From positions 1 to 58,003 of IMG/VR virus record IMGVR_UViG_3300012988_000004: DNA of 58,003 bases. One strand, written 5' to 3'. The position numbers and the translations under genes were made by a program. Source of the DNA: a virus. Shown piece after piece: positions 5,288-38,103 of the stretch (position 1 is its first letter; each line of letters opens with the position of its first letter). The notes beneath the pieces are model-generated. The model worked only from the letters and a program-made list of their open reading frames with translations. It was not told the origin of the DNA and did no database searches.

Positions 5288-5854
5288 TCACCCATGAAAG
5301 ACAATAATCAGCAAAGAAAGCAATCCTAAAGCCACTTCTCCGATAGTCCTATTAACAACCTTTCGAGTTAATTTAATTTCTATAATCTTATGGGCTGAAT
5401 CCATTTTTAGAGAATATTTGATAGTCTCATTTTTAACCCTTATCGCGCTATCTAAAGACTCATTAGCTTGATTGAGAGAATTTATCAGATTGCCTTGTGA
5501 TCGTTGCAGGGAATCGCAAATAACCCCTCTCTTAACCTCTTTAGTAATGGTTGTGGAATCGCTTTTGAAAACTGCAGCTATCTCTGCCTTTGTGACGGTG
5601 ATTGGCGAAATGTATTTACTCATCCAAAAGTCAGCAAGTCTTTTATGGTATTTGGCCGAATCCTCCCAGATCCTTGCTCGTTTCATCCAGAAAGAATCTT
5701 TTGGAGCTAGCTTAATAACCTTAGCCTCATCTTTCTTTAACTCTTGTTTTTCTAGCTTGATGGAGGCCGATTGCTTGCCCGTACATGAGTTTATTAAATA
5801 GCCTATGCCAAGGCCTACCAAAACAGAGATAAGCAAATGGTATGGCCTTATCAT
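5288..5854 (-). CDS. spanin-like membrane protein
   Basis: Using ATG 5854 (ATGA overlap with the endolysin stop), the protein is 188 residues. It has an N-terminal transmembrane helix (HLLISVLVGLGIGYLINSC), a long charged coiled-coil region, and a second hydrophobic helix at the C-terminus (IGEVALGLLSLLIIVFHG). Its position directly after the CHAP endolysin and this architecture suggest a role in disrupting the outer membrane. Two membrane anchors differ from the classical Rz, so a unimolecular spanin or another lysis accessory is equally possible. An upstream ATG at 5875 would add seven residues. Confidence 0.5.
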   Translation of the reverse strand: MIRPYHLLISVLVGLGIGYLINSCTGKQSASIKLEKQELKKDEAKVIKLAPKDSFWMKRARIWEDSAKYHKRLADFWMSKYISPITVTKAEIAAVFKSDSTTITKEVKRGVICDSLQRSQGNLINSLNQANESLDSAIRVKNETIKYSLKMDSAHKIIEIKLTRKVVNRTIGEVALGLLSLLIIVFHG

Positions 5855-6324
5855 CCTATAAGATTTATAAAGCAATCTACATTCGCCAGATTTCTTTGTC
5901 TTTTCTGCACCTGTCCTCCATTTGAATCATTGCCAGCGCTTGTATTGCCTTCTATGGTGTAAAAAAGTCCTGCTGTTTTATCCATCCATTCCACGAATAT
6001 CCCGACATGATCTGGGGCTTTATCATGATTCCAATCGAATAAAACCAAATCTCCTGCTTTTGGATCTTGTGTGATTTTATCCTTCCAAATATTCTTTCCA
6101 AAAGGAACGCTTGCAAATCCTTTAATGAAATCAGTTTTGTATTTTGGATGTCCTATGGGTATTCCTGCCTGATCGTAAACCCACGAACAGAAAATAGCGC
6201 ACCATTCAGCACCATCGAATCCAAACCACTGTCCGAACTTCTGCTTATTAGATCCTGCAGGATTCTCAGTTACGCCTATTTCGTGCTTGGCTACTTGAAT
6301 AATTCGCCATCTTATATCTTCCAT
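5851..6324 (-). CDS. CHAP-domain endolysin
   Basis: The 157-residue protein is a single CHAP (NlpC/P60-fold) amidase/peptidase. The catalytic Cys42 lies in 'EWCAIFCSWVY', His106 in 'APDHVGIFVEW', and the polar third position is in 'YTIEGNTS' (125-129). 'AGDLVLFDW' is the usual strand before the His. It has no signal peptide, so it should need a holin to reach peptidoglycan. The neighbours are holin-like membrane proteins upstream and a spanin-like gene downstream, a complete lysis cassette. Confidence 0.88.
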   Translation of the reverse strand: MEDIRWRIIQVAKHEIGVTENPAGSNKQKFGQWFGFDGAEWCAIFCSWVYDQAGIPIGHPKYKTDFIKGFASVPFGKNIWKDKITQDPKAGDLVLFDWNHDKAPDHVGIFVEWMDKTAGLFYTIEGNTSAGNDSNGGQVQKRQRNLANVDCFINLIG

Positions 6325-6639
6325 TTATTTTTTCTTTGGTATAAAAAATTCAATAAATCGTTCGGCATTCACTTTATACAAAGCATAAGATCCAATCTTT
6401 TCTCCTGATATTGTTATGATCGCGATAGCCAGTGGTTGCCAATGTTCTGCTACTTCATCCATAATCCAAGGAGCGAATAGGTAGGCCGATCCTATACCGC
6501 AGATAAAAGAAATGACAATCTGCTTAATAGTCACATTCTCTTTTCTACTTAGAATCGCAAGTTTAACACTCAGTCCCATAAGCGCAGGTAAAAGTATTTT
6601 AATGAATAGGGCTTTAAGTTCTTTCCACTCGTCTGTCAT
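6325..6639 (-). CDS. putative holin
   Basis: The 104-residue protein has about three hydrophobic segments: LFIKILLPALMGLSVKLAIL, IVISFICGIGSAYLFAPWI and PLAIAIITISGEKIGSYALY. It ends in a basic tail (FFIPKKK). Size, topology and position immediately before the endolysin fit a class I-type holin. It overlaps the next upstream membrane gene by 26 bases. Which of the membrane proteins here forms the lesion cannot be decided from sequence. Confidence 0.6.
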   Translation of the reverse strand: MTDEWKELKALFIKILLPALMGLSVKLAILSRKENVTIKQIVISFICGIGSAYLFAPWIMDEVAEHWQPLAIAIITISGEKIGSYALYKVNAERFIEFFIPKKK

Positions 6640-6973
6640 GATTGTAGATTATAAATGAAGTACAAATGGCAATTATTCCAATAATGACGTCCGTGTAAAT
6701 GTAGTATGTGATCTTAAAAATTGCTTTGTCAATTACACTTCCAAAGATCATTACTCCTAGAAAACAAAGGAATGCCTTAGTCAATCCATTGGTATTATAA
6801 AACCCTATCATGCAAAAGAGAAAGAACATAATCTCATAAACCACATTACGAGCTGCATAGAATTTGACATACTCTCCACAATCATTCAGATCATAGATAT
6901 ACCTGATTGTAGAATTGCCAAAATAAAGCAAAATCAAGACTACAGACATCGCTATCATTATTGCCCTTTTCAC
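6614..6973 (-). CDS. membrane protein, about four TM helices
   Basis: The 119-residue protein starts at GTG 6973, which overlaps the stop of the preceding tiny gene (GTGA). Hydrophobic segments lie near residues 4-20, 45-62, 67-85 and 93-112. It belongs to the lysis block and could be an antiholin or holin partner; no family was recognised. Confidence 0.55.
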   Translation of the reverse strand: MKRAIMIAMSVVLILLYFGNSTIRYIYDLNDCGEYVKFYAARNVVYEIMFFLFCMIGFYNTNGLTKAFLCFLGVMIFGSVIDKAIFKITYYIYTDVIIGIIAICTSFIIYNHDRRVERT

Positions 6974-7059
6974 TTCTTTGGTGGAGGTGGATCAGGATTA
7001 ACAGTATCTCTCTTGATCGGCTTCTTAATCGGTTTTTTAGCTTTCTTTTTCTTTGCCAT
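6970..7059 (-). CDS. small Lys/Pro-rich peptide, 29 aa
   Basis: The frame MAKKKKAKKPIKKPIKRDTV ends in a proline run (PDPPPPKK). Its ATG is 1 base after the upstream stop and its TGA overlaps the next GTG start. The tight fit supports translation. The sequence is low complexity and probably disordered. Confidence 0.5.
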   Translation of the reverse strand: MAKKKKAKKPIKKPIKRDTVNPDPPPPKK

Positions 7060-7060
7060 A

Positions 7061-7420
7061 TTATTGAAGTTTATCGTTTACTTTTTTCTCTGCAAATACT
7101 ACTGCCTTTCCTAAAGCCCCATAAACTAATCTCTGTCCAGCATAACCTAAAATTAAAGCTATTCCGAATGACACTAAGTTGTAATATTGCCATTCAGTTA
7201 TGCTTTTAGGAGCGTAATCTAAAACTATATAATGTGCCACTAAGTTTAATCCAATAATTAATCCAGAAATGAAAAGAGTGATCTTGTCTGTTTTCCAGAA
7301 AAGTTTCATTACATCTCCAAGACTATCATCAGGAGAAAGTTTGTCTAATTCTAAAACTTTTTCGCCTACATGGAATCCAATTCCAAGTAATTGAAGAATG
7401 AAGATTAAAGCATATTCCAT
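7061..7420 (-). CDS. membrane protein, three TM helices
   Basis: The 119-residue protein has hydrophobic stretches at residues 3-18, 48-66 (ITLFISGLIIGLNLVAHYIV) and 80-98, with a basic C-terminus. It lies two genes before the holin-like gene and could be part of the lysis set. No family was recognised. Confidence 0.55.
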   Translation of the reverse strand: MEYALIFILQLLGIGFHVGEKVLELDKLSPDDSLGDVMKLFWKTDKITLFISGLIIGLNLVAHYIVLDYAPKSITEWQYYNLVSFGIALILGYAGQRLVYGALGKAVVFAEKKVNDKLQ

Positions 7421-7422
7421 AG

Positions 7423-7758
7423 CTATTTCTTTTTAGGTTTAAGTATTCCATCAATTCCTTCTTTCGTTACTATCAGGCTATCCCCTTTATCACTCAGCCT
7501 TTGTATTGGTATTTTTCTTGACTGATATATGCGACTTACAAATTTTTGATGCTCTTCTCTTCGAATTGCAATAGCCTGATTGAATAAATCAACCTGTATT
7601 TTTGCTTGTTTTTCAAACTCATCATTGTCTTGAAACGTCATTTTTTCAAGTTCAGTAAATTCGATATGGAACTTTGAAGAATCAATTGGTTCAGATTTCT
7701 TTTGCGCGAAAGCCATCGAGCAAAATGAAATAAGTAAGAGTGTGGGTAGTGTTTTCAT
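7423..7758 (-). CDS. exported hypothetical protein, 111 aa
   Basis: A classical Sec signal peptide (MKTLPTLLLISFCSMAFAQ, cleavage after AFA) precedes a helical, charged mature region of about 92 residues rich in Glu, Lys and Gln, ending in KPKKK. It is one of three consecutive genes with export signals. A periplasmic lysis or superinfection role is possible but not shown. Confidence 0.6.
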   Translation of the reverse strand: MKTLPTLLLISFCSMAFAQKKSEPIDSSKFHIEFTELEKMTFQDNDEFEKQAKIQVDLFNQAIAIRREEHQKFVSRIYQSRKIPIQRLSDKGDSLIVTKEGIDGILKPKKK

Positions 7759-7762
7759 TATT

Positions 7763-9322
7763 CTAATCTTTATATCCTGCTGCTAAAAGTAATCCGTAAG
7801 CTATTCCGTGGCCCTTGTTTGAATTGGAATTCCATCCGTGCATTTTTGAGAAACCTAATTCAGTAGGATGGACAAAAAAAGCGTCTAAAATAAAATCCCC
7901 TTGTTGCGGCAGTAATGTGTTATACATTGCGACACGAACAAATTTTACACCCATTTGACTGAGTTGTACCCATCCCTTTCGCCATCGCCAATTGTTCATG
8001 CTCTGCATTTGTGCATCTCTTGTAGGGCCTGAAAAACGAGCATTGTTTTCTTCTATGAAAACAAATCTAAGTGATGGTTTTAAGTTATAATAAGTCATGA
8101 CGAGAGTAGTAAAATCAGACTGTTGTGTAACGTCTGGAAGATTATTAACACCCAACATTATGACAATTATATCGGGATCATACGCAGCCATATACGTTGC
8201 TGGTGTTGACGCTCCATTTGATCCAATAATAAAATCCATAAATGAAGTTCCCCCATATCCAGCATAATAACCCATTGGGAAAGCTGAATTAAATACCGGC
8301 CCTTTAAAGCTCATATTACTGATGCGGGAATCGTTCAAGAGCATATTATAGCAGCCCAATCGCCAACTATTATGTGGTGTCCCTCCAATAGTACGGCTAT
8401 CTCCAATAAATAGCACATCTAATGCCCCTGCCGTATTTGGAAGGGCTGGTAAAATTGGATCAACATCACTTATTCTTTCAGCAGGATTATACCTTGCATA
8501 AAAAGGAATATTCGTAGTTGATGATGATGCACTACTTGCACGAGTAGCAACTAATCCGCCTACTGCATCTGTCCAAGTCGATCCGGCATCGCTTGCTTTG
8601 AATAAAGTTACTGTATTTGTAGCCTGTGAATAAACATCATTTAAAAGAGCTTGGTAATGTGATTCTATCTGAGAATCAGTAAGTCCTGTTGAACTAATCC
8701 CACACGCAATTATACCGCTTTGATAAGGGTAAAAATTACTTGAATTAACAAAAGCAAACGATCCAATCGTAAGCCCTTTGGTAGAGCTTATGAATGACAT
8801 TGTAGTAGCGTTCATCGTAAATCCATTATAAGAACGTACCCCATTCTTATACATGTAAATTTTACCATGTCTAACTACTCCATGAATAACTTGTATTTTC
8901 CCTACTTCGTCCCACGTTGAAGCGATTGCGTTTACTTTTGTAACAGTATCATTATCATTACGAATGAATGTGCCACCAACGAACATTGAAGTCTCTCCCT
9001 GAAACTGACAAAATCCCCAACCAACTTTATTGGCATTGTGGTTGGTCTTCCCAAAAATTAACTGGGTATCATTTGTTGGAATTGCGGGATAGTTTGCAGT
9101 CACTACAACCCAAGCACTAAACCCTACCGAATCAGCTTGTCTTCCTGTTCCATCACCAGTATAATAGTTTTGTGAATTGGAAAAACCAGTAACAACAGAA
9201 ACGGGAATATTCTTTTCTGAAACGAAATGTCCTACCTGCGAAGCGCTGATTTTAGGATCGGTGCATCCAATTAAAAATAGAACGTATAGAAGTAAATATA
9301 TTAATCTCATAATTATTTCCAT
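7763..9322 (-). CDS. lipoprotein with LamG-like and SGNH/GDSL hydrolase domains
   Basis: Residues 5-20 are a lipoprotein signal ending in a lipobox-like LIGC. Residues 40-235 look like a concanavalin/LamG-type binding domain (FSAWVVVTANYP; KIYMYKNGVRSYNG). Residues 300-515 are an SGNH hydrolase: block I 'DVLFIGDSR' (Ser309), block III 'IVIMLGVNN', and block V 'D480-AFFV-H485-P'. Such enzymes remove acyl groups from polysaccharides or lipids. It follows the fibre gene, so a depolymerase-like or acetyl-esterase tail component, or a surface-modifying enzyme, is plausible. An alternative start is ATG 9310. Confidence 0.72.
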   Translation of the reverse strand: MEIIMRLIYLLLYVLFLIGCTDPKISASQVGHFVSEKNIPVSVVTGFSNSQNYYTGDGTGRQADSVGFSAWVVVTANYPAIPTNDTQLIFGKTNHNANKVGWGFCQFQGETSMFVGGTFIRNDNDTVTKVNAIASTWDEVGKIQVIHGVVRHGKIYMYKNGVRSYNGFTMNATTMSFISSTKGLTIGSFAFVNSSNFYPYQSGIIACGISSTGLTDSQIESHYQALLNDVYSQATNTVTLFKASDAGSTWTDAVGGLVATRASSASSSTTNIPFYARYNPAERISDVDPILPALPNTAGALDVLFIGDSRTIGGTPHNSWRLGCYNMLLNDSRISNMSFKGPVFNSAFPMGYYAGYGGTSFMDFIIGSNGASTPATYMAAYDPDIIVIMLGVNNLPDVTQQSDFTTLVMTYYNLKPSLRFVFIEENNARFSGPTRDAQMQSMNNWRWRKGWVQLSQMGVKFVRVAMYNTLLPQQGDFILDAFFVHPTELGFSKMHGWNSNSNKGHGIAYGLLLAAGYKD

Positions 9323-11013
9323 GCCGGTATATAAGCAGTTGAGCCATCAGAAGTTGTTATTTGAACCCATGTATATGGGGCGGTGTTTGTAGTTGCTGGT
9401 GAATTTGTTCCTAACAAAGCACTTCCCCCTCCAGTAGTATTGGTACCTCCGAACTTTATAACACGATTAAATGTCCATAGACTACTTGAGACAGTATAAA
9501 TATCATTCGTGCCGTCATTAAAAGTATATACATCAACATTCGTTGCACGATGCCGCCATGCTTTTGTACCACCTGTATTAAACACTATAACATCAACATT
9601 TGTACCTGAACTACTAAATGTACTGGCAGGGGAGCGAAGAGCTATTGTGGATGAACCTGTAAAATCGGCAGTAGTTCCACTCTGGAATAAATCTCCATTA
9701 TATCTAATTCTAAATCTATCTGAAGATGCTGATTGCAAATGCATTAAATAATCGGCCGATCCTGTTGTACTCCATGTTGGATTTGTACTAATAAGCTCCC
9801 TTCCTTGCATCCCAACTGGAAAAGTTGATGTTAAATATAACGATCTGGCAACCTGAGCACTTGTACCTGATCCAACAACAAAACTTCCGCCAATTTCAAA
9901 TAGATTATAAACATCAGCATTTCCTCCACTTCCGTTTGATCTTCCGGTAATCGTTGGATTTATTATAAAATGATCTTGTCCTGAAGCTGTCCCGGTCCAG
10001 CTTCCTCCCATCGATGAACCTTGAGTATTTAAAACCCAACTGATTGTATTGTTTGCCTCACTATAAGAACTTGCTCCAAAAATTATACTCCCTTTGGTTG
10101 CATGAGAAGTTGATGAAAGCGTTAAATTATTACCCGATGCTGTTCCGCCAATTACACTTTGTCCTCCTGATTTTCCGGTTGAAAGATCTGCTGTTAACGT
10201 TCCTGATGTGTTGGTTAGACCAGTACTGATTGTTAATGTCAGAGCATCTACATAACCTGTGGTTGCAATTGTACCATTATTAGTCCCAGGTGGTTGTGTT
10301 GTTGCTGTCATCCCATTCGCTAAAGCACCTGCATTGATAGAAGCGGCTGGCAATCCTGTTGCATTAGTCAAGGTTAGGCTAGATGGTGTTCCACCTGAGC
10401 CGTTAAACAAAACAGGAGCACCAGCACTACCAATGTTTACTCCTAATGCAGTTTGAACACCCGTGCCGAAAGTGATTGTTGATTGTTTAGCATTTAAGGC
10501 TGTTTGTAAATCAGTTTGATTTGAAAGTGTACCCGTAATAGAACCCCATGCTCCGCCTGAACTACCTAAGAAAATTTGAAATATATTATTAGGCTGATCA
10601 TACCAAACTTTCAATACCTGATTGGCCTGAATATCTCCTGACGAAAGTGCTGTATAAGATCCGCTTACTAGCTTCTGAAGATTTACTGCTCCATAACCAT
10701 TAATATTCAGTGTTGAAGCTCCGCTATTGCCATTCTGAAATTGGATCTCAAACAGACAATTGGAGTAACTTGTTATCGCTGAAGATGTAGAAACATAAGT
10801 ATTGGTCCCTGTCGCTACTAAAGGCAATACTGATAGCTTACTATAAGCTAAATCATTAAAATCTCCACCAATTCGTGCAGCAGTGTTTTGTCCGGGCCCA
10901 GCACTGATTACAGTATTACCATTGGCTATAAGTTGTGCATCTGTCTTTGCCTGACCAAAGCATGCCAACGAGATAAAAGATAAAATTCCAATCAATATTT
11001 TTTTCATAATCAC
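9313..11013 (-). CDS. large secreted fibre-like protein
   Basis: The 566-residue protein begins with a Sec signal peptide (MKKILIGILSFISLACFGQ; probable real start ATG 11007). A low-complexity Gly/Ser/Thr/Asn beta-rich body follows, as in tail fibres (TLNINGYGAVNLQKL; FGTGVQTALGVNIG), ending in a compact aromatic tip (TWVQITTSDGSTAYIPAWK). No peptidase S74 chaperone was seen. It lies after the head genes and before the SGNH lipoprotein. A receptor-binding fibre is likely, but the signal peptide is unusual for a virion protein and would also fit a secreted decoy or surface protein. Confidence 0.6.
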   Translation of the reverse strand: MIMKKILIGILSFISLACFGQAKTDAQLIANGNTVISAGPGQNTAARIGGDFNDLAYSKLSVLPLVATGTNTYVSTSSAITSYSNCLFEIQFQNGNSGASTLNINGYGAVNLQKLVSGSYTALSSGDIQANQVLKVWYDQPNNIFQIFLGSSGGAWGSITGTLSNQTDLQTALNAKQSTITFGTGVQTALGVNIGSAGAPVLFNGSGGTPSSLTLTNATGLPAASINAGALANGMTATTQPPGTNNGTIATTGYVDALTLTISTGLTNTSGTLTADLSTGKSGGQSVIGGTASGNNLTLSSTSHATKGSIIFGASSYSEANNTISWVLNTQGSSMGGSWTGTASGQDHFIINPTITGRSNGSGGNADVYNLFEIGGSFVVGSGTSAQVARSLYLTSTFPVGMQGRELISTNPTWSTTGSADYLMHLQSASSDRFRIRYNGDLFQSGTTADFTGSSTIALRSPASTFSSSGTNVDVIVFNTGGTKAWRHRATNVDVYTFNDGTNDIYTVSSSLWTFNRVIKFGGTNTTGGGSALLGTNSPATTNTAPYTWVQITTSDGSTAYIPAWK

Positions 11014-11021: not shown

Positions 11022-11687
11022 TTAAGGAAACGAATTATCAAAACTACTGTCAAATATTCTACTACTCGAAGCTCCTACTACCCACAAATAACCACGATCA
11101 GTCTCATCAAGTTTCCACTGCGTATAAAGTACATTCAAAGGTCTCGCCAAACTTCCAAGATCATTGTTCTCTGGTACCTTAACCGATAACACCAACCTCC
11201 CCATCACAGAACTCTCCGCATCTATTCTCTTCTGGTCCGGGTTCGCTATCTGAAGCCCTTCCCAATGTCTATTCATTATAAATCCTGGAGGCGTGTTAAA
11301 CCCCAAAGTCTTGTACCCCGAGTATTCAATGATCGATCTCACCACGCCCATTAACCTCTGTAACTTCGCCATCGCGAACTGATCTCCAGGTCCATTATTC
11401 TTACTCGTCTTGGCTCCCACATAACAATCCACATAATACCGGTACGTTCCGTCACTCTGTATCTGTGTCTGTCCTCCGTAGTTACCCTCCGCAAGTTGCA
11501 CGTTAACTGATGGATACTCTGTCTCCAAATCAAAAGGCACAAACCTCTCTATCCACACGTTCGCCTTCAGGTTAATATCATAGTTCAACTGGAACTGTGT
11601 CAATAACTCCTGAGCCAATATCCTTCCAACCCGATCTCTGACTATCTCAAAAGCCTGTGGTCCTATGGGAACATTTATAGCACTCAT
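11022..11687 (-). CDS. putative tail terminator/neck protein
   Basis: The 221-residue protein follows the head-completion protein, the place where lambda-type genomes carry neck or tail-terminator proteins. Its body (ILAQELLTQFQLNYDINLKA; VWIERFVPFDLETEYPSVNV) has the alpha/beta pattern of such proteins, but no family is certain. The last 13 residues (SRIFDSSFDNSFP) closely match the end of the gp46-like baseplate protein at 24174 (SRTFDSSFDDSFL). It overlaps the previous gene by 4 bases. Confidence 0.45.
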   Translation of the reverse strand: MSAINVPIGPQAFEIVRDRVGRILAQELLTQFQLNYDINLKANVWIERFVPFDLETEYPSVNVQLAEGNYGGQTQIQSDGTYRYYVDCYVGAKTSKNNGPGDQFAMAKLQRLMGVVRSIIEYSGYKTLGFNTPPGFIMNRHWEGLQIANPDQKRIDAESSVMGRLVLSVKVPENNDLGSLARPLNVLYTQWKLDETDRGYLWVVGASSSRIFDSSFDNSFP

Positions 11688-12061
11688 TCAAAATCTCCTA
11701 ACATGCAAACCAAAAGTCCTAACGCCTCATCCGGGTAAATTTCTCTTATCACATACTGCTCAACTATCCCCATACTGTCAATCACGGCCACCCTATTATC
11801 TTTAATTATGAGCTTGCCATTTGAATCCCTTACCGGATAACCTACATCTGACAAAGAACTCTCTGCGAAAGAAATATGGATCTTTCTGGTATTAACAAAC
11901 TCTCCCTGATTATCTACCCCTAAATGAATGACCGATGACATCCCTCTGATAATCGCGGTGGTGATGCCATCTGCTGCCGTAAACTGAATAGTCTTGGTAA
12001 ATCCATTCGGATCTGTTCTTATCCTCTTCACTGCCGCTTGTGCTGTTTCTATCATTCCCAT
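11684..12061 (-). CDS. head completion/head-tail joining protein (gpFII-like)
   Basis: The 125-residue, mostly beta protein includes ITTAIIRGMSSVIHLGVDNQ and YPVRDSNGKLIIKDNRVAVI. The gene lies directly after the capsid gene, as FII does in lambda. The length is close to lambda FII (117 residues). The protein is expected to sit at the portal exit and accept the tail. The assignment rests on position, size and strand-rich character rather than on a strong motif. Confidence 0.5.
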   Translation of the reverse strand: MGMIETAQAAVKRIRTDPNGFTKTIQFTAADGITTAIIRGMSSVIHLGVDNQGEFVNTRKIHISFAESSLSDVGYPVRDSNGKLIIKDNRVAVIDSMGIVEQYVIREIYPDEALGLLVCMLGDFE

Positions 12062-29238: not shown

Positions 29239-29985
29239 TCAGGAAAAAATTTCTGAAAGTCCAAATCGATCCGATACTTCTACAAGGGTTCTATTCCAGT
29301 TAGCAAGAAAATATCCTGGCCCGAGTTCGGATGAATTGTAATCCTTCATTATGACCGAGTTTTTAATTATTCCCTGAGCACTGGAATTTCTTGCCTTGAG
29401 CATAATGTCTTTCCTTACCCATGAGAAATGGTGCATGAAGAAAGGAAGTTCTATTACATCCGATTGATTGATTGCTCTGGTTGGATCTACATAGAATTTG
29501 TATGAAGAACTGCCTGACCTAGTATCTTCATTAAGTTCATGGATAAAAGGCACGTAATAATCCTCTGGGCGGTCGAATATTAATGTTGGCTTCTTAAAGT
29601 AGGTTTGCATACGACATACGCTTCCTTTTGCTCCTGATTGGAAATAAAGTCTTTTGCATTCTCCAAAGTCCTCGTAGAATTCGTCCACATCCATTCCAAT
29701 AAAATGAGTGCAGTGATTATCGCGGGCGAAGTCTATTCCAAGGTTCCGTTTGGCTCGTTCATTCAGTTGACCTCCCCATTCGATTGTGGGATCATATTTG
29801 ACAAGGATTGTTTTATCATACGAAAGATGCTCTATCTCAGGAAGCGGACTCCACTGCTCACCAAAGTTGGAAATGGTCTGATAGACTATGATGATAAGAT
29901 CACAATGATCATAGATTTGCTCGATAGATTTTTCTAAAAGCTCAACTCCATCGTAGCAGTTATAAATTGCCGCGAGTTTAGTCAT
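29239..29985 (-). CDS. glycosyltransferase (GT-A, family 2-like)
   Basis: The 248-residue protein has a nucleotide-sugar-binding start 'MTKLAAIYNCYDGVELLEKS', the Asn/Arg helix 'QLNERAKRNLGIDFARDN' and a metal-binding D-x-D at 99-101 in 'FIGMDVDEFYED'. These are the marks of a GT-A glycosyltransferase. The substrate is unknown. It is the last gene of the cassette and overlaps the previous gene by 4 bases. Confidence 0.7.
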   Translation of the reverse strand: MTKLAAIYNCYDGVELLEKSIEQIYDHCDLIIIVYQTISNFGEQWSPLPEIEHLSYDKTILVKYDPTIEWGGQLNERAKRNLGIDFARDNHCTHFIGMDVDEFYEDFGECKRLYFQSGAKGSVCRMQTYFKKPTLIFDRPEDYYVPFIHELNEDTRSGSSSYKFYVDPTRAINQSDVIELPFFMHHFSWVRKDIMLKARNSSAQGIIKNSVIMKDYNSSELGPGYFLANWNRTLVEVSDRFGLSEIFS

Positions 29986-30695
29986 TGCATTCTTGTATAG
30001 ATGTTATCAGTCATTGGAAATTTTATGTCCTCCGGCTTCAAATCGAAATTCCTTTTCTTGCGCTCTATGAAATTCATTTTGCCCTCTTCGAAGGTTGCAT
30101 CATTCCTTTTGTTAAGGTCATCTTTTGGGATTGACTCGCATAGATGCCTGAAATCTAAATTTGTTCCTGAACTACATAATTGACACCATCTGCCAGTCAT
30201 TTCGGCAACGCATGTAAGTTCAGTATCACAAAACATGTGCTTGTAGGAAGGATGATAAACGTATCCGAATCGGTTGTAATACTTCCATCCCATGATAGGC
30301 ATAGTTATAATCCATACCTGTATACCATCAAATATATGGTAACATCTATCCTCTTCTTCACCGATGGATTGTTTAAGTGTCTTACCCCAATCTTGCGGAC
30401 AATCAAAGTCATCTGATATTACTATCAGGAAATCGCCAGGCTTTCCGCGATGCTTGGAATAAAATTCAGCTGCAACATTTATTGCTTCAATTGCTGATTT
30501 GTTTTGATTGATGAGCTTAGTGAAATTGAGACAAGGAAATTTAAAAGAATAATTCCAGAGTTCCGAATCATCCGAATCAAGACTCATTACATATTCGAAC
30601 TCATCTTGATCTAATCCTATTCGTTCAATCCATTTTTTTGCTGTGGCAATCGCCAATTGTGGACGGCTTCTGCTTGGATGGATTATAGTGATCAT
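29982..30695 (-). CDS. glycosyltransferase-like protein, paralogue of 36249
   Basis: The 237-residue protein begins 'MITIIHPSRSRPQLAIATAK', has an acidic cluster 'SLDSDDSE' (38-45) and a GT-A type 'VISDDFDCPQDW' (92-103). A conserved 'YHPSYKHMFCDTELTCVAEM' block recurs in the protein at 36249 as 'YHPAYKSFSCDAESFYVAMM'. The two are therefore paralogues. It is expected to transfer a sugar from a nucleotide donor; the acceptor is unknown. Confidence 0.65.
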   Translation of the reverse strand: MITIIHPSRSRPQLAIATAKKWIERIGLDQDEFEYVMSLDSDDSELWNYSFKFPCLNFTKLINQNKSAIEAINVAAEFYSKHRGKPGDFLIVISDDFDCPQDWGKTLKQSIGEEEDRCYHIFDGIQVWIITMPIMGWKYYNRFGYVYHPSYKHMFCDTELTCVAEMTGRWCQLCSSGTNLDFRHLCESIPKDDLNKRNDATFEEGKMNFIERKKRNFDLKPEDIKFPMTDNIYTRMQ

Positions 30696-31186
30696 GATTC
30701 CAAAAGTTTTGTCACATCAATATGATCGCTCATGGCCGTAGCCCATGCTCCGGGAGTTTCAAAGTCGAGATGATATTTGTATTTGTTGATCTCCGGCCTC
30801 ATCTGATAACCGTGTTCGGCAGCCGGTTCAGTATCATGTGCTATGATAATTTGTGCATGATGTAGTAAAGGCAATCTTATTTTACGGTCCTCGCCTGGCG
30901 CATGATCCACAAGTACAACTCCATAATCCTTTCTCAATGGTAATGTGTCCCAATTTTCAATGTATATGCTATCATTTTCCTTAGCATATTCCATCTTGTC
31001 ATCATACGTGATGAACTCCAATCCTTCATCTTTGCAGTATTGTCTAAGTACCGCAGTTGATCCCATTCCTGAGCCAAGTTCCAATGTAGGCAATTTAAGA
31101 TGCTTGGTTGCCTCAAGAGATGCCCATAACAACATTAGATGTGAGTTCCAATTTCCGAATACTTTTAAGAATTCTACTTTTGTCAT
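30692..31186 (-). CDS. class I SAM-dependent methyltransferase-like protein
   Basis: The 164-residue protein shows motif I 'LELGSGMGST' (residues 36-45), an acidic residue after the second strand (FITYDDKMEYA) and 'VVLVDHAPGEDR' as the fourth strand. It is shorter than many family members. The acceptor is unknown; in a glycan cassette O-methylation of a sugar would fit. Confidence 0.6.
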   Translation of the reverse strand: MTKVEFLKVFGNWNSHLMLLWASLEATKHLKLPTLELGSGMGSTAVLRQYCKDEGLEFITYDDKMEYAKENDSIYIENWDTLPLRKDYGVVLVDHAPGEDRKIRLPLLHHAQIIIAHDTEPAAEHGYQMRPEINKYKYHLDFETPGAWATAMSDHIDVTKLLES

Positions 31187-31191
31187 ATAAA

Positions 31192-31683
31192 TTAAATTAA
31201 GTCTTTAACTTTTCCTCTTCTACTAAAAGCGTTTATAACATTTTTTCCTTTTAATGGAAGATTGTCGGTCAACAATCTCAAATCTTCTTTTGAGATCATG
31301 TAGCGATACTCGTCCTTTATTTCCACCGGTTCTCCTTTCGCGATTTTATTTCTGAGGAAATTTATAAATGTATTGGGATTTGTGTCAAAATCTATATTTC
31401 CTATACGAATGATATTGTAGTTCTCCCAAATGTCATCAACCATTGTTTCCATAATCATTTTGTGGGTGAAGTATGGAGTTTCTTTTTCAAATAACTGAAT
31501 GCTACTGAAATAGAAAAGGCACTTATCGCGAGGTTGATCCAACAAGAGAAGATATTCTCTTTCAAATGCTTTGTGATCGGTTTCGCCACTATTGGAAACT
31601 CCGCTGGCAAAGAATATAGCGCCTTCACGGTCATTAAGTATTCGGGCGATATTTCCATTCCCCACAATCATTTCAATATCCAC
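31192..31683 (-). CDS. SDR-type (NAD-dependent epimerase/dehydratase-like) small protein
   Basis: The 163-residue protein has a nucleotide-binding start 'MIVGNGNIARIL', a strand 'AIFFASGVSNSG', an active-site-like 'YFSSIQLF' and Tyr71-x-x-x-Lys75 in 'YFTHK'. That Ser/Tyr/Lys layout is the extended-SDR catalytic pattern, but the length is half the usual 300 residues. It could be a minimal or reduced sugar-nucleotide-modifying enzyme. It overlaps the FkbM-like gene by 16 bases. Confidence 0.55.
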   Translation of the reverse strand: MDIEMIVGNGNIARILNDREGAIFFASGVSNSGETDHKAFEREYLLLLDQPRDKCLFYFSSIQLFEKETPYFTHKMIMETMVDDIWENYNIIRIGNIDFDTNPNTFINFLRNKIAKGEPVEIKDEYRYMISKEDLRLLTDNLPLKGKNVINAFSRRGKVKDLI

Positions 31684-32252
31684 AAACTATCCCAATAATT
31701 AAATCCAACTCCATGCTGAGAAGTGTAATCGTGCTTTATTGCTTCGTAACCCAATGCCTTCAGCTTATCTTCCATCATAGTCATCTCCGTTTGTCCGTAG
31801 ATTCCAGTGTGCAGATGAAACTCGATAGATAGCTGTTTAGCAGGCGCTTTGTCCAATGACATGATGACTTCATATTCCGATCCTTCAATGTCCAATTTTA
31901 TTAAATCCCAAAATTTAACATCGTAATAAACTGAAAGAGCCTTCAATGTTGTGCACTGAATTTCATAATCAGTTTTTGGTTGCTTTTGAATTCGGGTGGC
32001 TTGCTTGTCATCTGATTTTACTAAGTAGCCGGTGCCTATGAAATCACTGAGTGCAACCATGTCGTATGGTCCGCCTTCTAATTTATCGGCATCTATACAC
32101 CATACTTTGCATTTTAACTTAGCCATTCCTTCAGCGAATTCAAAGCCTCTGCATCCTGCATCCAAAACATTAGCTCCATCGTAAGGGAATATTCCACCGA
32201 AGCTGTAAGGGATGAAAGAATGTTCAGCAATTGTTAGTATTTCGCAATTCAT
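31668..32252 (-). CDS. FkbM-family methyltransferase
   Basis: The 194-residue protein carries SAM motif I 'VLDAGCRGFEFAEGM' (residues 29-43), an acidic 'VWCIDADKLEG', and the FkbM hallmark 'WDLIKLDIEGSEYEVI'. The C-terminus 'ALGYEAIKHDYTSQHGVGFN' is also typical. FkbM enzymes O-methylate sugars and polyketides. This makes sugar methylation the most likely role within the cassette. Confidence 0.72.
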   Translation of the reverse strand: MNCEILTIAEHSFIPYSFGGIFPYDGANVLDAGCRGFEFAEGMAKLKCKVWCIDADKLEGGPYDMVALSDFIGTGYLVKSDDKQATRIQKQPKTDYEIQCTTLKALSVYYDVKFWDLIKLDIEGSEYEVIMSLDKAPAKQLSIEFHLHTGIYGQTEMTMMEDKLKALGYEAIKHDYTSQHGVGFNYWDSLWILK

Positions 32253-32454
32253 ATTCGTAGTAAAAATTACTTATGACTGATTTGGCAATTATTTCCGATG
32301 TAGATGATTTCATAGTCTCGCCAGCACCAAGACCACATTTAGCGCACATGGGAACATGAAATTGCGCAGTCCAAGTTTGATATACTTTAACTGCAACTTT
32401 ATTGCTTCCACAACGAGGACAATTTTTATCAATGGTGGTTTCGTAATCTTCCAT
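32224..32454 (-). CDS. zinc-ribbon small protein
   Basis: The 76-residue protein has two Cys pairs, 'NCPRCGS' and 'MCAKCGLG', separated by 22 residues of strand-rich sequence, as in a zinc ribbon. The layout is similar to Lar-type restriction-alleviation proteins, but the tail is not, so no function is assigned. The end overlaps the FkbM-like gene by 29 bases. Confidence 0.55.
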   Translation of the reverse strand: MEDYETTIDKNCPRCGSNKVAVKVYQTWTAQFHVPMCAKCGLGAGETMKSSTSEIIAKSVISNFYYEYELRNTNNC

Positions 32455-33113
32455 TATTTAAAATGTTCCTTGCGAAACATTGGTTTATCTGCTATGCAAT
32501 AACGCACTTTATAGGCATCAGTTGGCTCATGGCCATTCAGATATATCGCTGCTGCCATGCAACTCTCATCATTCCTGTGGCCGTTTATAAGCTCGCTGGA
32601 GGCTTCATATTGGCTTCCGAACATTCCGCGAAGTTCTGATTGCTTCCATATTTGAAATATCTTCTGTGTCAATTCAAAGTCGAAATCGAAGTAATACATT
32701 GACCCTCCCACAAGTCTCCAATCTTTCTCCACCATCTCTTCTTTTTCGATATTGAAGTATTTCCGAGCTTTTTCCGAGATTAATCCGACAAGTTTGTTGT
32801 CATCCTTGATTGCCACCATTCGGAATTTGAATAGGTCGTCAATCTTGTCGGCAAGTATCATGGCAGGATCGAGCCAAATGATTTTTGTGAATCCATTCTT
32901 CCTTGCCTGCTCAATTGCATGAACTTTCAAGCCGTAAAGCGATATGTGGAAAGGGCGCGCGCCATCAGGCAATGTGTTGGTGTAGAAAAGTAAGTTCGCA
33001 TCTGGATAAATTGCTAGTATGGACTGCTTTAATCTTTCTTGTTGTTCCAAATAGCGATCATCACCATAATTGAACTTGCCGAAAGCCTGGCATACGAAAC
33101 AAACGTCATTCAT
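32454..33113 (-). CDS. glycosyltransferase-like protein
   Basis: Started at ATG 33113 the protein has 219 residues (MNDVCFVCQAFGKFNYGDDR). The middle 'GLKVHAIEQARKNGFTKIIW' followed by 'LDPAMIL' is the GT8/GT-A region where a D-x-D usually lies; here it reads D-P-A, so metal binding may be altered. 'RLVGGSMYYFDF' and 'GHRNDESCMAAAIYLNGHEP' resemble later GT8 motifs. An upstream ATG at 33167 would add 18 residues but overlap the preceding gene by 62 bases. Confidence 0.55.
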   Translation of the reverse strand: MNDVCFVCQAFGKFNYGDDRYLEQQERLKQSILAIYPDANLLFYTNTLPDGARPFHISLYGLKVHAIEQARKNGFTKIIWLDPAMILADKIDDLFKFRMVAIKDDNKLVGLISEKARKYFNIEKEEMVEKDWRLVGGSMYYFDFDFELTQKIFQIWKQSELRGMFGSQYEASSELINGHRNDESCMAAAIYLNGHEPTDAYKVRYCIADKPMFRKEHFK

Positions 33114-33321
33114 GATTGTAAATATTTTCTGCTTCCATAATATTATTGGCCTTATGCCATGTTCCATCTTTTTTTAGACAGATTAAATAATCAACACATT
33201 GTATATTTTGAAAAACTAATTTAGCATCAAAAAATGAATTGACTCCAATAACAAATTTATCGTCAGAACTTATGACCGTAGCCATTTTAAAGTTTTTTCC
33301 GTAAAAAGGAATTGCATTCAT
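33106..33321 (-). CDS. hypothetical protein, 71 aa
   Basis: Small mixed alpha/beta protein (MNAIPFYGKNFKMATVISSD...). It is coupled by a 4-base overlap to the upstream glycosyltransferase gene and by an 8-base overlap to the next. No family was recognised. Confidence 0.55.
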   Translation of the reverse strand: MNAIPFYGKNFKMATVISSDDKFVIGVNSFFDAKLVFQNIQCVDYLICLKKDGTWHKANNIMEAENIYNHE

Positions 33322-34121
33322 TGTAGTGCGTTTTTAAATTGTTCCGTATAGTCAGCAAACCATGTATGGTCATCGTGAGGGAAAACTGATGCCAGCATTC
33401 GCATGACCTTCATAAAGGTTTCGTCATTAGAATATATATCGTGAGGCAGGTGGCAGTCAATTGGATTAGGGTGGTAAGTAGCCCACGCACTCCTGTCAAT
33501 TCTTCCAATCGGGTATCCATTCGTAAGAACGCCACGATGAACAAATTCTTTTTCAAATTGTACTTCATTTATTCTTTTGGTTATTAGTCTCTGATCTGTG
33601 CACCATCTTTCAATTTGATTTCCGTTTTCGCGCGCATCTGGCATGTCGTCCAAGTCTCTCTTTATTAATTCGAGTGCATTATTAGTATAGATTCCCATTA
33701 CCTCTCTCCATCGTTCCGCCATCATTCCAATGTAGCATATCGGGATCTGTTGGTATCCTGTTAAGTCGTGACCCCAAACAGTTATTTTTTTTGGATCAAA
33801 TTTCCAATAATCACTCAAGGCCATCATGTCTGCATCGCCAGTCATAATATAATCACCATTTCCAGTAAAGCAGGCAGCATAAAGTCTTGAAACTTGTGCG
33901 ATTGTGTCAGAGCGATAGTTTTCAATATTAACAAAAGGAATTCCTTGCACATTAAAATTTTTAATTGCTTGTGCCACCACAAACATTGTGTCCAATGATC
34001 CTTTGCAGTTCTGCAAAACCATCACATCCCATCCTATTCTTTTCCATGACCATACAACCAATGGAAGAGTGAATTGGTAAATTGGATTCTCGTTAATTGA
34101 AAGGACGATTACTTTTCTCAT
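33318..34121 (-). CDS. glycosyltransferase (GT-A fold)
   Basis: The 267-residue protein starts 'MRKVIVLSINENPIYQFTLP' and has a clear D-x-D at 96-98 in 'YIMTGDADMMAL'. An acceptor-region signature 'RWCTDQRLITKRINE' and His-rich C-terminal segments follow (FPHDDHTWF). The 'GDADM' motif and the W-rich strand before it place it with GT-A enzymes of unknown substrate. It is probably cotranscribed with the other cassette genes. Confidence 0.65.
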   Translation of the reverse strand: MRKVIVLSINENPIYQFTLPLVVWSWKRIGWDVMVLQNCKGSLDTMFVVAQAIKNFNVQGIPFVNIENYRSDTIAQVSRLYAACFTGNGDYIMTGDADMMALSDYWKFDPKKITVWGHDLTGYQQIPICYIGMMAERWREVMGIYTNNALELIKRDLDDMPDARENGNQIERWCTDQRLITKRINEVQFEKEFVHRGVLTNGYPIGRIDRSAWATYHPNPIDCHLPHDIYSNDETFMKVMRMLASVFPHDDHTWFADYTEQFKNALQ

Positions 34122-34267
34122 TTTTGTTTCTTTTCAAGATCATCTATTCTTTCAAGCAGCATAAATATCATTTCCATTAAATAAGCAGTCGTAGTAGGAT
34201 ATTCGTGCTTTGATTTAGCCTTTAATCTAGCTGTATTAAAGAATATTTGTTTTTCCTCGAATGTCAT
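34118..34267 (-). CDS. small helical protein, 49 aa
   Basis: The frame MTFEEKQIFFNTARLKAKSK continues to a Lys-rich end. It is locked between two glycosyltransferase genes by ATGA overlaps on both sides (34264-34267 and 34118-34121). A single amphipathic helical hairpin is likely. Function unknown. Confidence 0.6.
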   Translation of the reverse strand: MTFEEKQIFFNTARLKAKSKHEYPTTTAYLMEMIFMLLERIDDLEKKQK

Positions 34268-35061
34268 AACCACCACCAGAATAGTTTAGGAAATTGTTTT
34301 TCTATCGCCTCGAACTTGCTTGGTTCTTTCTCAAATCTTATAAAGAAGCGAATTGTTTCCATCTCGTTCATACCCGGACTCCCAATAAATTGTGAGCACA
34401 AGTTAGATTCCCATAGCATTGGACGTACTTGTGGAAGTGGCGCTTGAGAGTATGAATCTGGAATTTCTTCGCCCAATGGTCCTCCAGACCAAAGTAAATC
34501 GTCCTTAATTCGCGGTAGAACCTTTGTATTCATCCAAACCTGATCTGATCCATGCTGAGATAAATCTAATCCACTAATCATTTGTTCCCAACTATTCACT
34601 TCCATGCAGGATCTAAACCATGCACAGTCAAACGAAACCATGCCACCCATCAATCCAGAATGTGCTCTATTGTCGAGTATGGCATGGCACTTCTTTGGGC
34701 TTTCCAGCCACTTTTGAACTACTAAGGCTTCCCGGTAGCTGCTGAGTGCATCTGCGTCCCTGCACAAAATATGAGTTACATTCTGGTCGAAGATTGGCTT
34801 CATCCTACGGAGCATTCCTTCACATCGCTTTGGCTTGTTTTCTTCGTTGACACTAATACTTAAGTTATTGTTAGCAACCAACCAATCGAATAGTCCCTGA
34901 AATTCTGAGTAAAGATCGCGCGATATTTCAAGATGAGTCTGCCAATCGGGGAACACAAATGAGTTCATCCTACAATTCCAGTACATTCCCCTTATGTAGA
35001 AAAGTTTCTCGAAGTTCTGTGTGCCTTCGGAGTTAAACAGGGAATAACATATTTTCTTCAT
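34264..35061 (-). CDS. glycosyltransferase-like protein
   Basis: The 265-residue protein has a metal-site-like 'HILCRDADAL' (98-105), a Gly-rich 'HSGLMGGMVSFDCAWF', and 'QHGSDQVWMNTKVLPRIKDD', a combination seen in sugar-transferase-like proteins with a GT-A fold. It ends in an aromatic tail (FWWWL). Substrate unknown. Confidence 0.58.
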   Translation of the reverse strand: MKKICYSLFNSEGTQNFEKLFYIRGMYWNCRMNSFVFPDWQTHLEISRDLYSEFQGLFDWLVANNNLSISVNEENKPKRCEGMLRRMKPIFDQNVTHILCRDADALSSYREALVVQKWLESPKKCHAILDNRAHSGLMGGMVSFDCAWFRSCMEVNSWEQMISGLDLSQHGSDQVWMNTKVLPRIKDDLLWSGGPLGEEIPDSYSQAPLPQVRPMLWESNLCSQFIGSPGMNEMETIRFFIRFEKEPSKFEAIEKQFPKLFWWWL

Positions 35062-35588
35062 AAAGCGTATAGTGAATGACCTTTTATTAAGGTATTGTTA
35101 ATAATAGCGTTTCTAATAGTTTTTTCAGATGCTCGAAAATATTTAGAGCATTCTTTTTTGGATACAAATTCAATCAATGAGCAATCCTGAATAGCAATAA
35201 TGGCATGACGATGTTTTGTGAATCCATTCTCTATTGAATGATTTGTATTTTCTTTTGGAGTTGTCCATTCTAATTCACTTGCACGACAATCCTTTTTATT
35301 ACCTTTTTTATGATTGACTTCTTTTTTGTTTTCGGGGTTTGGTATAAAATGTTCAGCTACAAGTCGGTGCAATAGAAATCTTTTTTCTACCTGTTCCACT
35401 TTAAGCATTACTGACAAATATCCATTCTTATAATGAGCAGTCGCTTTTTTCAATTTACTCTTGCAGAATTTGAATGATCCATAAAAAGGAACAAATCGAT
35501 CAATACTCCTAACTCTTCCAAGATCAGAAATCTCATAATGATTTTCATAACCTACGATTGGTTTCCATCTTTCAATTATTTCACTCAT
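35058..35588 (-). CDS. HNH homing endonuclease (NUMOD4-HNH-NUMOD1)
   Basis: Residues 5-30 are NUMOD4 (RWKPIVGYENHYEISDLGRV). Residues 70-112 are an HNH_3 nuclease (RLVAEHFIPNP, EVNHKKGNKKDCRASELEW, TTPKENTNHS). The C-terminus is a NUMOD1-like DNA-binding helix (SKKECSKYFRASEKTIRNAI). It is a free-standing homing endonuclease. It joins both glycosyltransferase neighbours by 4-base ATGA overlaps, so it has become part of the operon. Confidence 0.85.
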   Translation of the reverse strand: MSEIIERWKPIVGYENHYEISDLGRVRSIDRFVPFYGSFKFCKSKLKKATAHYKNGYLSVMLKVEQVEKRFLLHRLVAEHFIPNPENKKEVNHKKGNKKDCRASELEWTTPKENTNHSIENGFTKHRHAIIAIQDCSLIEFVSKKECSKYFRASEKTIRNAIINNTLIKGHSLYAL

Positions 35589-36166
35589 AATTCATGCTTG
35601 GGGTTACCGGCATAATAATAATAGATAATTTCTGGAATTGGATATTCCGTTTTAAGAACTCCTGCTTTTTGTAAAGCAATACTGTATTGACCATCCTCTC
35701 CCACTGTAATATCAGGATATTTTATGTCTTTGACTTTATCTAATCTCAAAAAATTAAGATGGTTTGGATTTCGATAGAACATTTGCGCATCCTGATACCA
35801 ATGATCATATTTCAATGAATGGTGAAATGGATTGTTCTTTTTACCATTCTCATAATATTGCCCAAACAATTCACCGCAATCTAATCCACTTTCAGCAACC
35901 TCAAGTCCTCGCTTAATGTAAGTTGGCCCCGGAAGATCGTCATCATCATGGAAGGCAATGTATTCGCATTTTCTTTCGACTGCCATCTGAATAAGGAAAT
36001 TCCTTTTTGCTCCAGTAGTCCACTCTTTATTATCGCGATGCCAAATAAAACAAACATCTTTTCCTTCAGGATCAACTTCATTCATTTGCTTGGTGAGTTC
36101 ACCTGTCAATCTGTTAAAAAGATCAACTCGCTCATCAAGGGTTGGGATTAAAATTCCTAATTTCAT
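35585..36166 (-). CDS. glycosyltransferase family 2
   Basis: The 193-residue protein starts 'MKLGILIPTLDERVDLFNRL', a GT2 N-terminus, and has 'IAFHDDDDLPGPTYIKRG' with the D-x-D at 74-77, then 'VGEDGQYSIALQKAG' as the acceptor-binding ED region. All three marks are standard GT2. The protein is short, consisting of just the catalytic domain. Confidence 0.72.
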   Translation of the reverse strand: MKLGILIPTLDERVDLFNRLTGELTKQMNEVDPEGKDVCFIWHRDNKEWTTGAKRNFLIQMAVERKCEYIAFHDDDDLPGPTYIKRGLEVAESGLDCGELFGQYYENGKKNNPFHHSLKYDHWYQDAQMFYRNPNHLNFLRLDKVKDIKYPDITVGEDGQYSIALQKAGVLKTEYPIPEIIYYYYAGNPKHEL

Positions 36167-36252
36167 TTTTTATTTTTTTGAAGTGATAGACAATAAAGCT
36201 GAATGATTGCTAAATAAATTCCTATGATAATCCAAAAATAAAATTCCTTCAT
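36163..36252 (-). CDS. single-pass membrane peptide, 29 aa
   Basis: MKEFYFWIIIGIYLAIIQLY is one transmembrane helix followed by a basic tail (LQKNKK). ATGA overlaps with both neighbours show that it is coupled into the glycosyltransferase operon. Function unknown. Confidence 0.6.
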   Translation of the reverse strand: MKEFYFWIIIGIYLAIIQLYCLSLQKNKK

Positions 36253-36965
36253 AAAAATTTTTGTAATTCAGTTCTTGCTTTTAAAATTTCGTGGCCGCTT
36301 GGCTCATCAAAATAACGCTTTAGTCTTTCGAAGTAAACTCTAACATCATGGTCTGTATGCAAAGAGTTCGCACGATAGGTCTCATCATTAGGAGCTGGGC
36401 TATTGGCCGGATGTTGATGCTTTGCCAATACCTGATCGAAATAATGATACTTTCCTCTCATCATTGCTACGTAGAAGCTCTCTGCATCGCAGGAGAACGA
36501 TTTGTAGGCAGGATGGTAAATATACGAGTCACGTTCGTAATACTCGCGTCCTATGACGCTCATGGTGCAAAGCTGATCGTGGGTATAACCATCCGAGAAA
36601 TGCAAATAGCAGTCGAGAGAACCGTTCCAAACGTCTTTTATGAGCTGCCTGATTACGTTGTCCCAGCCTGGCTGGATAAAGAAGAAGTCATCGCTCATGT
36701 TCACCAAAATGTCCCAATTTTCAGGCATGTGCCGGTTGATAGCGTCAACTTTAGTTTCGTGTGGTCCTGAGCAAACATCAATTTTTGGATTAGTGCGATA
36801 AAACTCTTTCATCTTATCCGAGTGCATTGTAAAATCGTCATCATCTATGCTCACCGAGATTATGTAGTTATCATCATGGATAGTGTTCATGATGTTGGAG
36901 ATGGCCTTCACAAAGTATTGAGGGCGATGGCGAGTGGCATATTTTATGAGTATGCGTTGGCTCAT
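36249..36965 (-). CDS. glycosyltransferase-like protein, paralogue of 29982
   Basis: The 238-residue protein contains 'SIDDDDFTM' (39-47) and 'VNMSDDFFFIQPGW' (88-101), matching the two acidic sites of the 29982 protein. The 'YHPAYKSFSCDAESFYVAMM' block is shared as well. This points to an old duplication within the cassette followed by separation over 6 kb. Confidence 0.65.
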   Translation of the reverse strand: MSQRILIKYATRHRPQYFVKAISNIMNTIHDDNYIISVSIDDDDFTMHSDKMKEFYRTNPKIDVCSGPHETKVDAINRHMPENWDILVNMSDDFFFIQPGWDNVIRQLIKDVWNGSLDCYLHFSDGYTHDQLCTMSVIGREYYERDSYIYHPAYKSFSCDAESFYVAMMRGKYHYFDQVLAKHQHPANSPAPNDETYRANSLHTDHDVRVYFERLKRYFDEPSGHEILKARTELQKFL

Positions 36966-36966
36966 A

Positions 36967-37116
36967 TCAATTATCGTGAAATCTTGTTTCCATTCCTAAA
37001 TTAATCCCGCATCTTTTGCAATGATAAAACTCATAGCTTATAGCCCAACATTTTTTGTCGCTTTTTTCAACCATCACTTTATTATGGCCGAATATTTTAC
37101 AAAGTAATTTTTTCAT
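36967..37116 (-). CDS. zinc-binding small protein (DUF1660-like), 49 aa
   Basis: From ATG 37116, coupled to the upstream stop by ATGA, the sequence is MKKLLCKIFGHNKVMVEKSD with a later 'YHCKRCGINLG'. The order Cys-x4-His ... Cys-x2-Cys is the pattern of DUF1660 prophage proteins, which are likely zinc binders of unknown function. A longer frame from 37182 would overlap the methyltransferase gene by 70 bases. Confidence 0.55.
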   Translation of the reverse strand: MKKLLCKIFGHNKVMVEKSDKKCWAISYEFYHCKRCGINLGMETRFHDN

Positions 37117-37667: not shown

Positions 37668-37894
37668 GCAACCTTTTCCTTTTTGTCGGATTGCTTCTTA
37701 ATATCCTTTTCATTTTTTGAAGCATCAAAAAGAGAAGGTTCTTTTTTCTTTTTATTGGTAATCTCTTCGACTATTTCCTTAGTCTGTTCTTTAAGTTGAC
37801 TTTCGATAGCGCTGCGAACTACTGTCTGCTGCATTTGGAAATATGCGTCAATAAGTTCGCATAGTTCTACAAGTTTTTTTTCGGTCTTTGTCAT
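37664..37894 (-). CDS. charged helical protein, 76 aa
   Basis: Lys/Glu-rich protein (MTKTEKKLVELCELIDAYFQ...) with a coiled-coil N-terminal half and a disordered, Lys-rich tail (KKKKEPSLFDASKNEKDIKK). It overlaps the methyltransferase gene by 4 bases. No family was recognised. Confidence 0.55.
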   Translation of the reverse strand: MTKTEKKLVELCELIDAYFQMQQTVVRSAIESQLKEQTKEIVEEITNKKKKEPSLFDASKNEKDIKKQSDKKEKVA

Positions 37895-37913
37895 TTTGGT
37901 ATTGAATTAAGGT

Positions 37914-38099: not shown

Positions 38100-38103
38100 A
38101 GTT

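Follow-up and report, generated by a model that had tools for sequence, protein, structure and literature searches.

Export signals on a fibre-like protein and its neighbours in a contractile-tailed phage, with a proposed route of fibre addition outside the cytoplasm

Tailed phages are taken to assemble entirely in the cytoplasm, and a fibre-like phage protein that carries an export signal raises the question of where it acts and how it might reach a virion. The question arose at three adjacent genes on the minus strand, at 7423-11013 of IMG/VR virus record IMGVR_UViG_3300012988_000004. The whole stretch analysed (58,003 nucleotides) is called the window here. The genes encode a fibre-like protein of 566 amino acids (aa), a 519-aa lipoprotein with an SGNH/GDSL-type domain and a 111-aa protein. 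An earlier note had assigned export signals to all three, and their open reading frames and N-terminal signals were confirmed in place. We give an even chance to the reading that the host Sec system exports the 566-aa fibre, which becomes part of the virion outside the cytoplasm, during lysis or following it, with the SGNH lipoprotein as an envelope-anchored enzyme. The evidence comprises the signals, their conservation in relatives, the glutamine (Q) at position +1 after the predicted cleavage site, and database statements that signal-bearing relatives belong to the virion.

Export signals in the three-gene block

The block and its parts are as follows.

9313..11013, minus strand: 566-aa fibre-like protein, type I signal peptide with +1 Q, no Pfam or PHROG family
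10954..11013, minus strand: its predicted signal peptide, counted from the GTG start, with cleavage predicted before Q21
10549..10896, minus strand: its mature N-terminal domain (residues ~40-155), common to signal-bearing proteins of relatives
7763..9322, minus strand: 519-aa lipoprotein with lipobox LIGC (Cys20) and a C-terminal SGNH/GDSL-type domain (residues ~305-490; PF13472 below cut-off)
7423..7758, minus strand: 111-aa protein, type I signal peptide with +1 Q

All signal calls were made with a heuristic detector of our own. The 566-aa protein starts with MIMKKILIGILSFISLACFG followed by QAKT, a type I signal. The 111-aa protein starts with MKTLPTLLLISFCSMAFA followed by QKKS, also type I (AFA before the Q). 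Both show the pattern of Q-rule type I substrates: a charged n-region, a hydrophobic core, a small residue and +1 Q. PMC5837995 and PMC10653852 describe +1 Q as characteristic of type I signal peptidase substrates in Bacteroidetes and the Q-rule as confined to that group. The 519-aa protein starts with MEIIMRLIYLLLYVLFLIG followed by CTDP. Its LIGC, with the Cys at 20, agrees with the bacterial lipobox [LVI][ASTVI][GAS]C after a hydrophobic core, a criterion that does not apply to the 566-aa and 111-aa proteins.

Of the window's genes, 29 reach 200 aa or more, and among these only the 566-aa and 519-aa genes combine a positively charged n-region with a hydrophobic stretch. Six of 73 window genes of at least 100 aa scored with the detector, namely the three of the block, two lysis-cassette membrane proteins and a small predicted lipoprotein. 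The last is encoded at 45404-45835, far from the block, and has the signal MRTYLLFMLSFALAGSIILTS followed by CATPIP. Models of type IX secretion sorting domains had no match in ten proteins, the block's three included. Type IX secretion, whose cargo has such a C-terminal sorting domain, found no support.

In-frame ATG, GTG or TTG codons occur in the first 100 codons of the 566-aa gene only at 1, 3, 7, 16 and 63 (TTG). The main product is thus expected to include the signal, and a form without it would have to begin at the TTG of codon 63 or beyond.

The label "fibre-like" is suggested by a module at ~148-312 of the 566-aa protein that is common to fibre-like genes of other phage contigs, and by a short motif common to phiSM gp08 and to gp085 of phi38:1/phi40:1, annotated as structural. 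The same module was present in further genes that have no signal-type N-terminus (L007 6657-8951; L011 and L012 7923-10088). The mature N-terminal domain is a candidate virion-attachment domain. No match was found for the 566-aa protein in Pfam or PHROGs, and PDB sequence searches, its own included, were without result. Searches of annotated phages by tblastn with the 566-aa and 519-aa proteins had no match, and the C-terminal part of the 566-aa protein matched only a near-identical record (L002). A sub-threshold match of its C-terminus (9313-9357) to "MiiA motif-containing surface protein" (E 0.018, 14.7 vs 24 bits) is probably due to chance. Structure prediction without alignment was uninformative, with a mean pLDDT (predicted local distance difference test) of 32 for the 519-aa and 34 for the 566-aa protein.

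The block sits between the last head-neck gene and a lysis cassette.

11022..12061, minus strand: upstream head-neck/tail-completion genes (phrog_4671 at 11022-11687; Hc1 at 11684-12061)
5288..7420, minus strand: lysis cassette, downstream of the block
7061-7420 and 6614-6973, minus strand: membrane proteins of the cassette
6325-6639, minus strand: holin-like protein of the cassette (phrog_5883)
5851-6324, minus strand: CHAP endolysin of the cassette
5288-5875, minus strand: protein of the cassette with two transmembrane segments

Signal-bearing relatives and their virion records

Relatives were sought with the neighbouring phrog_4671 protein as anchor and not through the fibre. This gave 21 loci, of which L002 is the near-identical phage. 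Signal segments were counted across loci with a test that has no cleavage criterion (n-region charge plus hydrophobic stretch). This test labels the 519-aa protein, a lipoprotein, as Q through a chance SQ. A large signal gene with +1 Q was found shortly downstream of phrog_4671, small genes sometimes intervening, in four of the five loci that keep the gene order of the window and extend far enough downstream (L094, L095, L097 and L098). L096, whose sequence ends after the anchor, was left out of the count. L095 encodes three consecutive proteins with signal and Q (522, 1066 and 461 aa), followed by an endolysin-like gene. Among loci with the gene order of phage phiSM, signal-bearing genes were present in L103 (407 aa) and L100 (389 and 256 aa, seen by eye and unflagged by the test). 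L106 and L108, of the same order, had no signal-bearing large gene. In the remaining phrog_4671 loci the region was out of view or the N-terminus cut.

The mature N-terminus of the 566-aa protein aligns with those of the L094, L095 and L097 proteins (three of the four close relatives). In direct blastp the 566-aa protein reached L094 (E 1e-10) and L097 (E 1e-9), and L095 was linked to these two. The aligned signals of the four proteins have just 5-9 identities over 15-18 positions, and the Q is invariant. The signals look selected for cleavage because the sequence diverges while the charge, core, small residues and +1 Q persist, as would be expected under such selection.

The holin-like protein served as second anchor and gave 10 loci, seven with a large signal-bearing gene nearby. 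Two Flavobacterium FCL-2-type loci and L032 had no large signal-bearing gene near the holin-like gene. The eight loci without the FCL-2 type hold 41 genes of at least 200 aa. Seven of these have an N-terminal segment, in every case with a small residue plus Q at its end, compared with three of 34 segment-less large genes with a small residue plus Q at residues 15-26 (Fisher p 5e-6; 1e-4 once duplicates were collapsed to five). The phrog_5883 profile had no match in sets of 4 and 395 genomes, where the controls were likewise silent, and this search was uninformative.

Virion membership was taken from tandem mass spectrometry (MS/MS) proteomics notes in GenBank records of Cellulophaga phages, those of phi18:3, phi10:1, phi19:1 and phiSM being viewed in part. 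The signal-bearing proteins noted by MS/MS are phiSM gp08, phi18:3 gp085-gp087, phi10:1 gp091-gp094 and phi19:1 gp101-gp104. A signal-type segment opens all 12, followed by +1 Q in 11 of them. The N-terminus of phiSM gp08 was read from the identical phi38:2. The viewed parts of the four phages, which represent three morphotypes, contain 14 large signal-bearing proteins, of which 12 carry a virion note. The other two, phiSM gp09 (SGNH) and phi10:1 gp095, have signals and no MS/MS note. Some of the noted proteins match PHROGs named tail or tail fibre, names that may come from the same records. In phi18:3 gp086 the first 118 residues, which take in the signal, recur at 82-83% conservation in two siphoviruses (phi10:1 and phi19:1) as well as in phi19:3 and phi13:2 (Pachyviridae); beyond them gp086 does not align with these four phages. 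This is the pattern of an N-terminal module common to siphovirus and podovirus types. In cultured Cellulophaga phages, between three and five signal-bearing genes for structural proteins or lyases stand in a row at L017 10892-16584, L067 4748-11779, L068 5455-11592 and L072 5041-11449. An OmpA-domain protein with a lipoprotein-like N-terminus is encoded by the crAss-like phi14:2 (gp002; L022 283-1278).

As at the block of the window, consecutive genes with export signals stand ahead of lysis genes in phi18:3 (KC821620): gp085-gp087, all three large and with Sec-type signals and +1 Q, precede genes for membrane proteins and an endolysin and small genes of Rz-like type. Unlike the window phage, phi18:3 is a podovirus, and its three proteins are all MS/MS-noted and none is a lipoprotein. 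phiSM and phi38:2 (KC821616 and KC821629) belong to the window's lineage by the sheath (47%) and by phrog_4671 (34%). Their signal-bearing gp08 (MS/MS) adjoins a signal-bearing GDSL-domain protein, gp09, followed by lysis genes. Their block differs from that of the window in lying between portal and protease and in the type I signal of gp09, which has no lipobox, and gp08 has only one short motif in common with the 566-aa protein. In the Cellulophaga phages phi10:1, phi19:1, Nekkels and Ingeline, tandem signal-bearing structural or pectate-lyase proteins follow the tail genes, although these tails are long and non-contractile. The available part of PMC8776804 mentions "signaling peptides" on the lyases of Nekkels and Ingeline, treats the enzymes as usually tail-located and leaves the signals uninterpreted. 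Q-type signal genes are also carried by Porphyromonas gingivalis prophages of the proposed Nixviridae (PMC10367356, part available).

Domains in the signal-bearing relatives include a beta-helix, an alpha/beta-hydrolase match, a BNR match, DUF4886, collagen repeats and GDSL, several of them below Pfam cut-offs. This set fits recognition and modification of surface glycans. A Pedobacter prophage has the order last tail gene, 947-aa signal-bearing protein (DUF4886), membrane protein and a muramidase, the last a probable call made by eye; tblastn of the 947-aa protein had no match in annotated phages.

No signal-bearing virion fibre was described in the titles and abstract openings searched, a coverage that leaves out most subscription literature. 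The available parts of PMC6199706, PMC5723332, PMC4615864, PMC3338817 and PMC3517404 held nothing relevant to such fibres.

Fate of the exported proteins

The three-gene block is best read as the receptor/polysaccharide module of the phage, made as exported protein in this lineage. From the gene order, the three genes would be expressed late, alongside the lysis genes. Host Sec would export all three proteins, and, from the sequences and the published Q-rule, signal peptidase I would expose the Q on the 566-aa and 111-aa proteins. Host glutaminyl cyclase would turn this Q into pyroglutamate, and the 519-aa SGNH protein would be lipidated at Cys20. The 566-aa fibre would accumulate in the periplasm or at the cell surface, then join virions outside the cytoplasm, probably through its conserved mature N-terminal domain. 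Lysis is the most likely time, when both compartments mix. We infer the joining step and its place. In the weakest step, the SGNH lipoprotein would remain on the envelope and de-esterify surface or wall glycans, with less re-adsorption of progeny and superinfection, or easier release.

The earlier note had offered two options, proteins that coat the infected cell or exported fibres added to the virion by an unknown route. Fibre addition is favoured for the 566-aa protein by the 12 MS/MS-noted relatives and the kept +1 Q, and coating may apply to the SGNH lipoprotein. In the main rival reading all three proteins are genuinely exported and work on the infected cell alone (masking of receptors, acetyl or sugar removal, superinfection block, easier release), and the MS/MS notes of relatives would reflect co-purified envelope. 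We regard this as rather unlikely. It agrees with the lipoprotein signal of the 519-aa protein better than with the fibre, and with phiSM gp09 and phi10:1 gp095, which lack an MS/MS note. It also has a parallel in the five P. gingivalis prophage Q-rule genes, which the authors, in the available part of PMC10367356, saw as possible outer-membrane modifiers with no link to virions. Against it stand the 12 virion-noted proteins of 14, spread over three morphotypes, and the matches to tail and tail-fibre PHROGs, with the caution on names given above.

Two further explanations are each improbable. If the N-terminal hydrophobic segment were no working signal, and served docking or membrane contact during cytoplasmic assembly, the virion membership of relatives would require no new route. 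However, the segment diverges among homologues yet keeps its charge, hydrophobic core, small residues and +1 Q, which is predicted by processing and not by docking. The earlier note had named uncleaved proteins in virions as the finding that would speak against use of the signals; signal-bearing relatives are indeed reported in virions, in a form that may or may not be cleaved. A dual fate, with some protein exported as a cell coat and some left unprocessed in the cytoplasm and built into virions, would square MS/MS detection with functional-looking signals. We give it an equally small share, as the first 62 codons of the 566-aa gene offer no probable internal start from which a form without the signal could arise. 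An exported, processed and externally joined fibre remains the simplest account, because the signals look functional and relatives are noted in virions.

Several points weigh against external joining of the fibre. We infer the cleavage and location of the 566-aa protein, its joining step and the transfer from relatives. The 566-aa protein is tied to a protein detected by MS/MS (phiSM gp08) through a single 23-residue motif. What is stated on MS/MS comes from notes in database records, and membrane fragments could carry exported proteins along during purification. L099, a more distant phrog_4671 relative, has no large signal-bearing gene at the place in question. Signal-bearing fibres are not universal, and several Bacteroidota phages are without them: the controls FCOV-F14 and FL-1 had no signal among 55 large genes, and the MS/MS-annotated phi40:1 and phi14:2 had no such signal-bearing fibre in the first 50 kilobases of each. 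A tape-measure-anchored survey of 27 Bacteroidota regions yielded one clear phage case. A Bacteroidota host for the window phage is itself only likely, as judged from relatives.

In that survey the 27 regions held 76 large genes, seven signal-like and three of these with Q (one of 28 Bacteroidota matches was omitted as its downstream sequence was too short). Twenty Pseudomonadota regions, one match each from 20 of the 51 genomes with a match, held 51 large genes and one signal-like; several survey regions were short or GC-rich (high in guanine plus cytosine). The trait is not general among the sampled Bacteroidota prophages. None of 20 large genes had a signal in a Vibrio phage whose sheath belongs to the same family, and Bacteroides phage B40-8 had one among 24, without Q. 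PF04865, screened in 385 genomes from the phylum of Pedobacter, gave mostly frames of ~1,000 residues or more, which look like injection systems rather than phages, and it was given up as an anchor.

The SGNH/GDSL consensus consists of blocks with catalytic Ser, Gly, Asn and His. PF13472 matched the 519-aa protein with E 3.9e-6 and 27.9 bits, under the Pfam cut-off of 32.9. The blocks are GDS at 307-309, GVNN at 391-394 and H485 with D480. Activity of the domain is uncertain since two blocks depart from the consensus, with GVNN for GxND and the Asp five, not three, residues before His485. Surface-exposed Bacteroidota lipoproteins have an acidic export motif shortly after the Cys. By eye, no acidic cluster follows Cys20 in CTDPKISAS, and surface exposure is therefore not claimed. 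The 111-aa protein had no match to any family in Pfam, PHROGs or further model searches. It was compared with small lysis proteins of other phages, and a relationship found no support.

Phage type, host and meaning

On the minus strand of the window, PHROGs labels tail sheath, tube, tape measure, baseplate genes, portal, protease, decoration protein, major head protein and Hc1. These labels identify a contractile-tailed phage. The sheath has relatives in 128 records of annotated phages, the best being Flavobacterium phages at ~49% identity, and it also matches loci in Pedobacter, Allomuricauda and Christiangramia genomes and one contig labelled a Gammaproteobacteria metagenome-assembled genome. 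Relatives of the phrog_4671 protein in annotated phages are mainly from Cellulophaga phages. The nearest named relatives of the window phage infect Bacteroidota, and a host in this phylum is likely because the sheath and phrog_4671 relatives come mostly from Bacteroidota and their phages. Between terminase and sheath, 29239-39350 holds small-to-medium genes, one of which (29982-30695) matches a PHROG named glycosyltransferase. The run is a possible sugar-modification island.

Signal-type fibre-like genes were also observed at L004 2941-6602, L005 4495-9823, L008 3021-8930 and L009 3089-3865, in tandem in L004, L005 and L008. These four contigs have 45-57% GC and no assigned host, so the trait may extend beyond Bacteroidota.

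We propose, tentatively and at a little under an even chance, that many Bacteroidota phages, with contractile, long non-contractile or short tails, make receptor-binding proteins and polysaccharide enzymes as Sec precursors. Host signal peptidase and glutaminyl cyclase would process these in the periplasm, and virions already complete in other respects would receive them outside the cytoplasm as the cell lyses, so that tailed-phage assembly would span two compartments. Should export of receptor-binding proteins come first, phage assembly would gain a second step, in the envelope or outside the cell. Host Sec, signal peptidase and glutaminyl cyclase would then be phage host factors, and exported fibres could additionally mask receptors. 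In that case, fibres of Bacteroidota phages that are expressed in the laboratory without signals and a processed N-terminus might fail. Cultured phage-host pairs of Cellulophaga baltica allow these predictions to be tested now.

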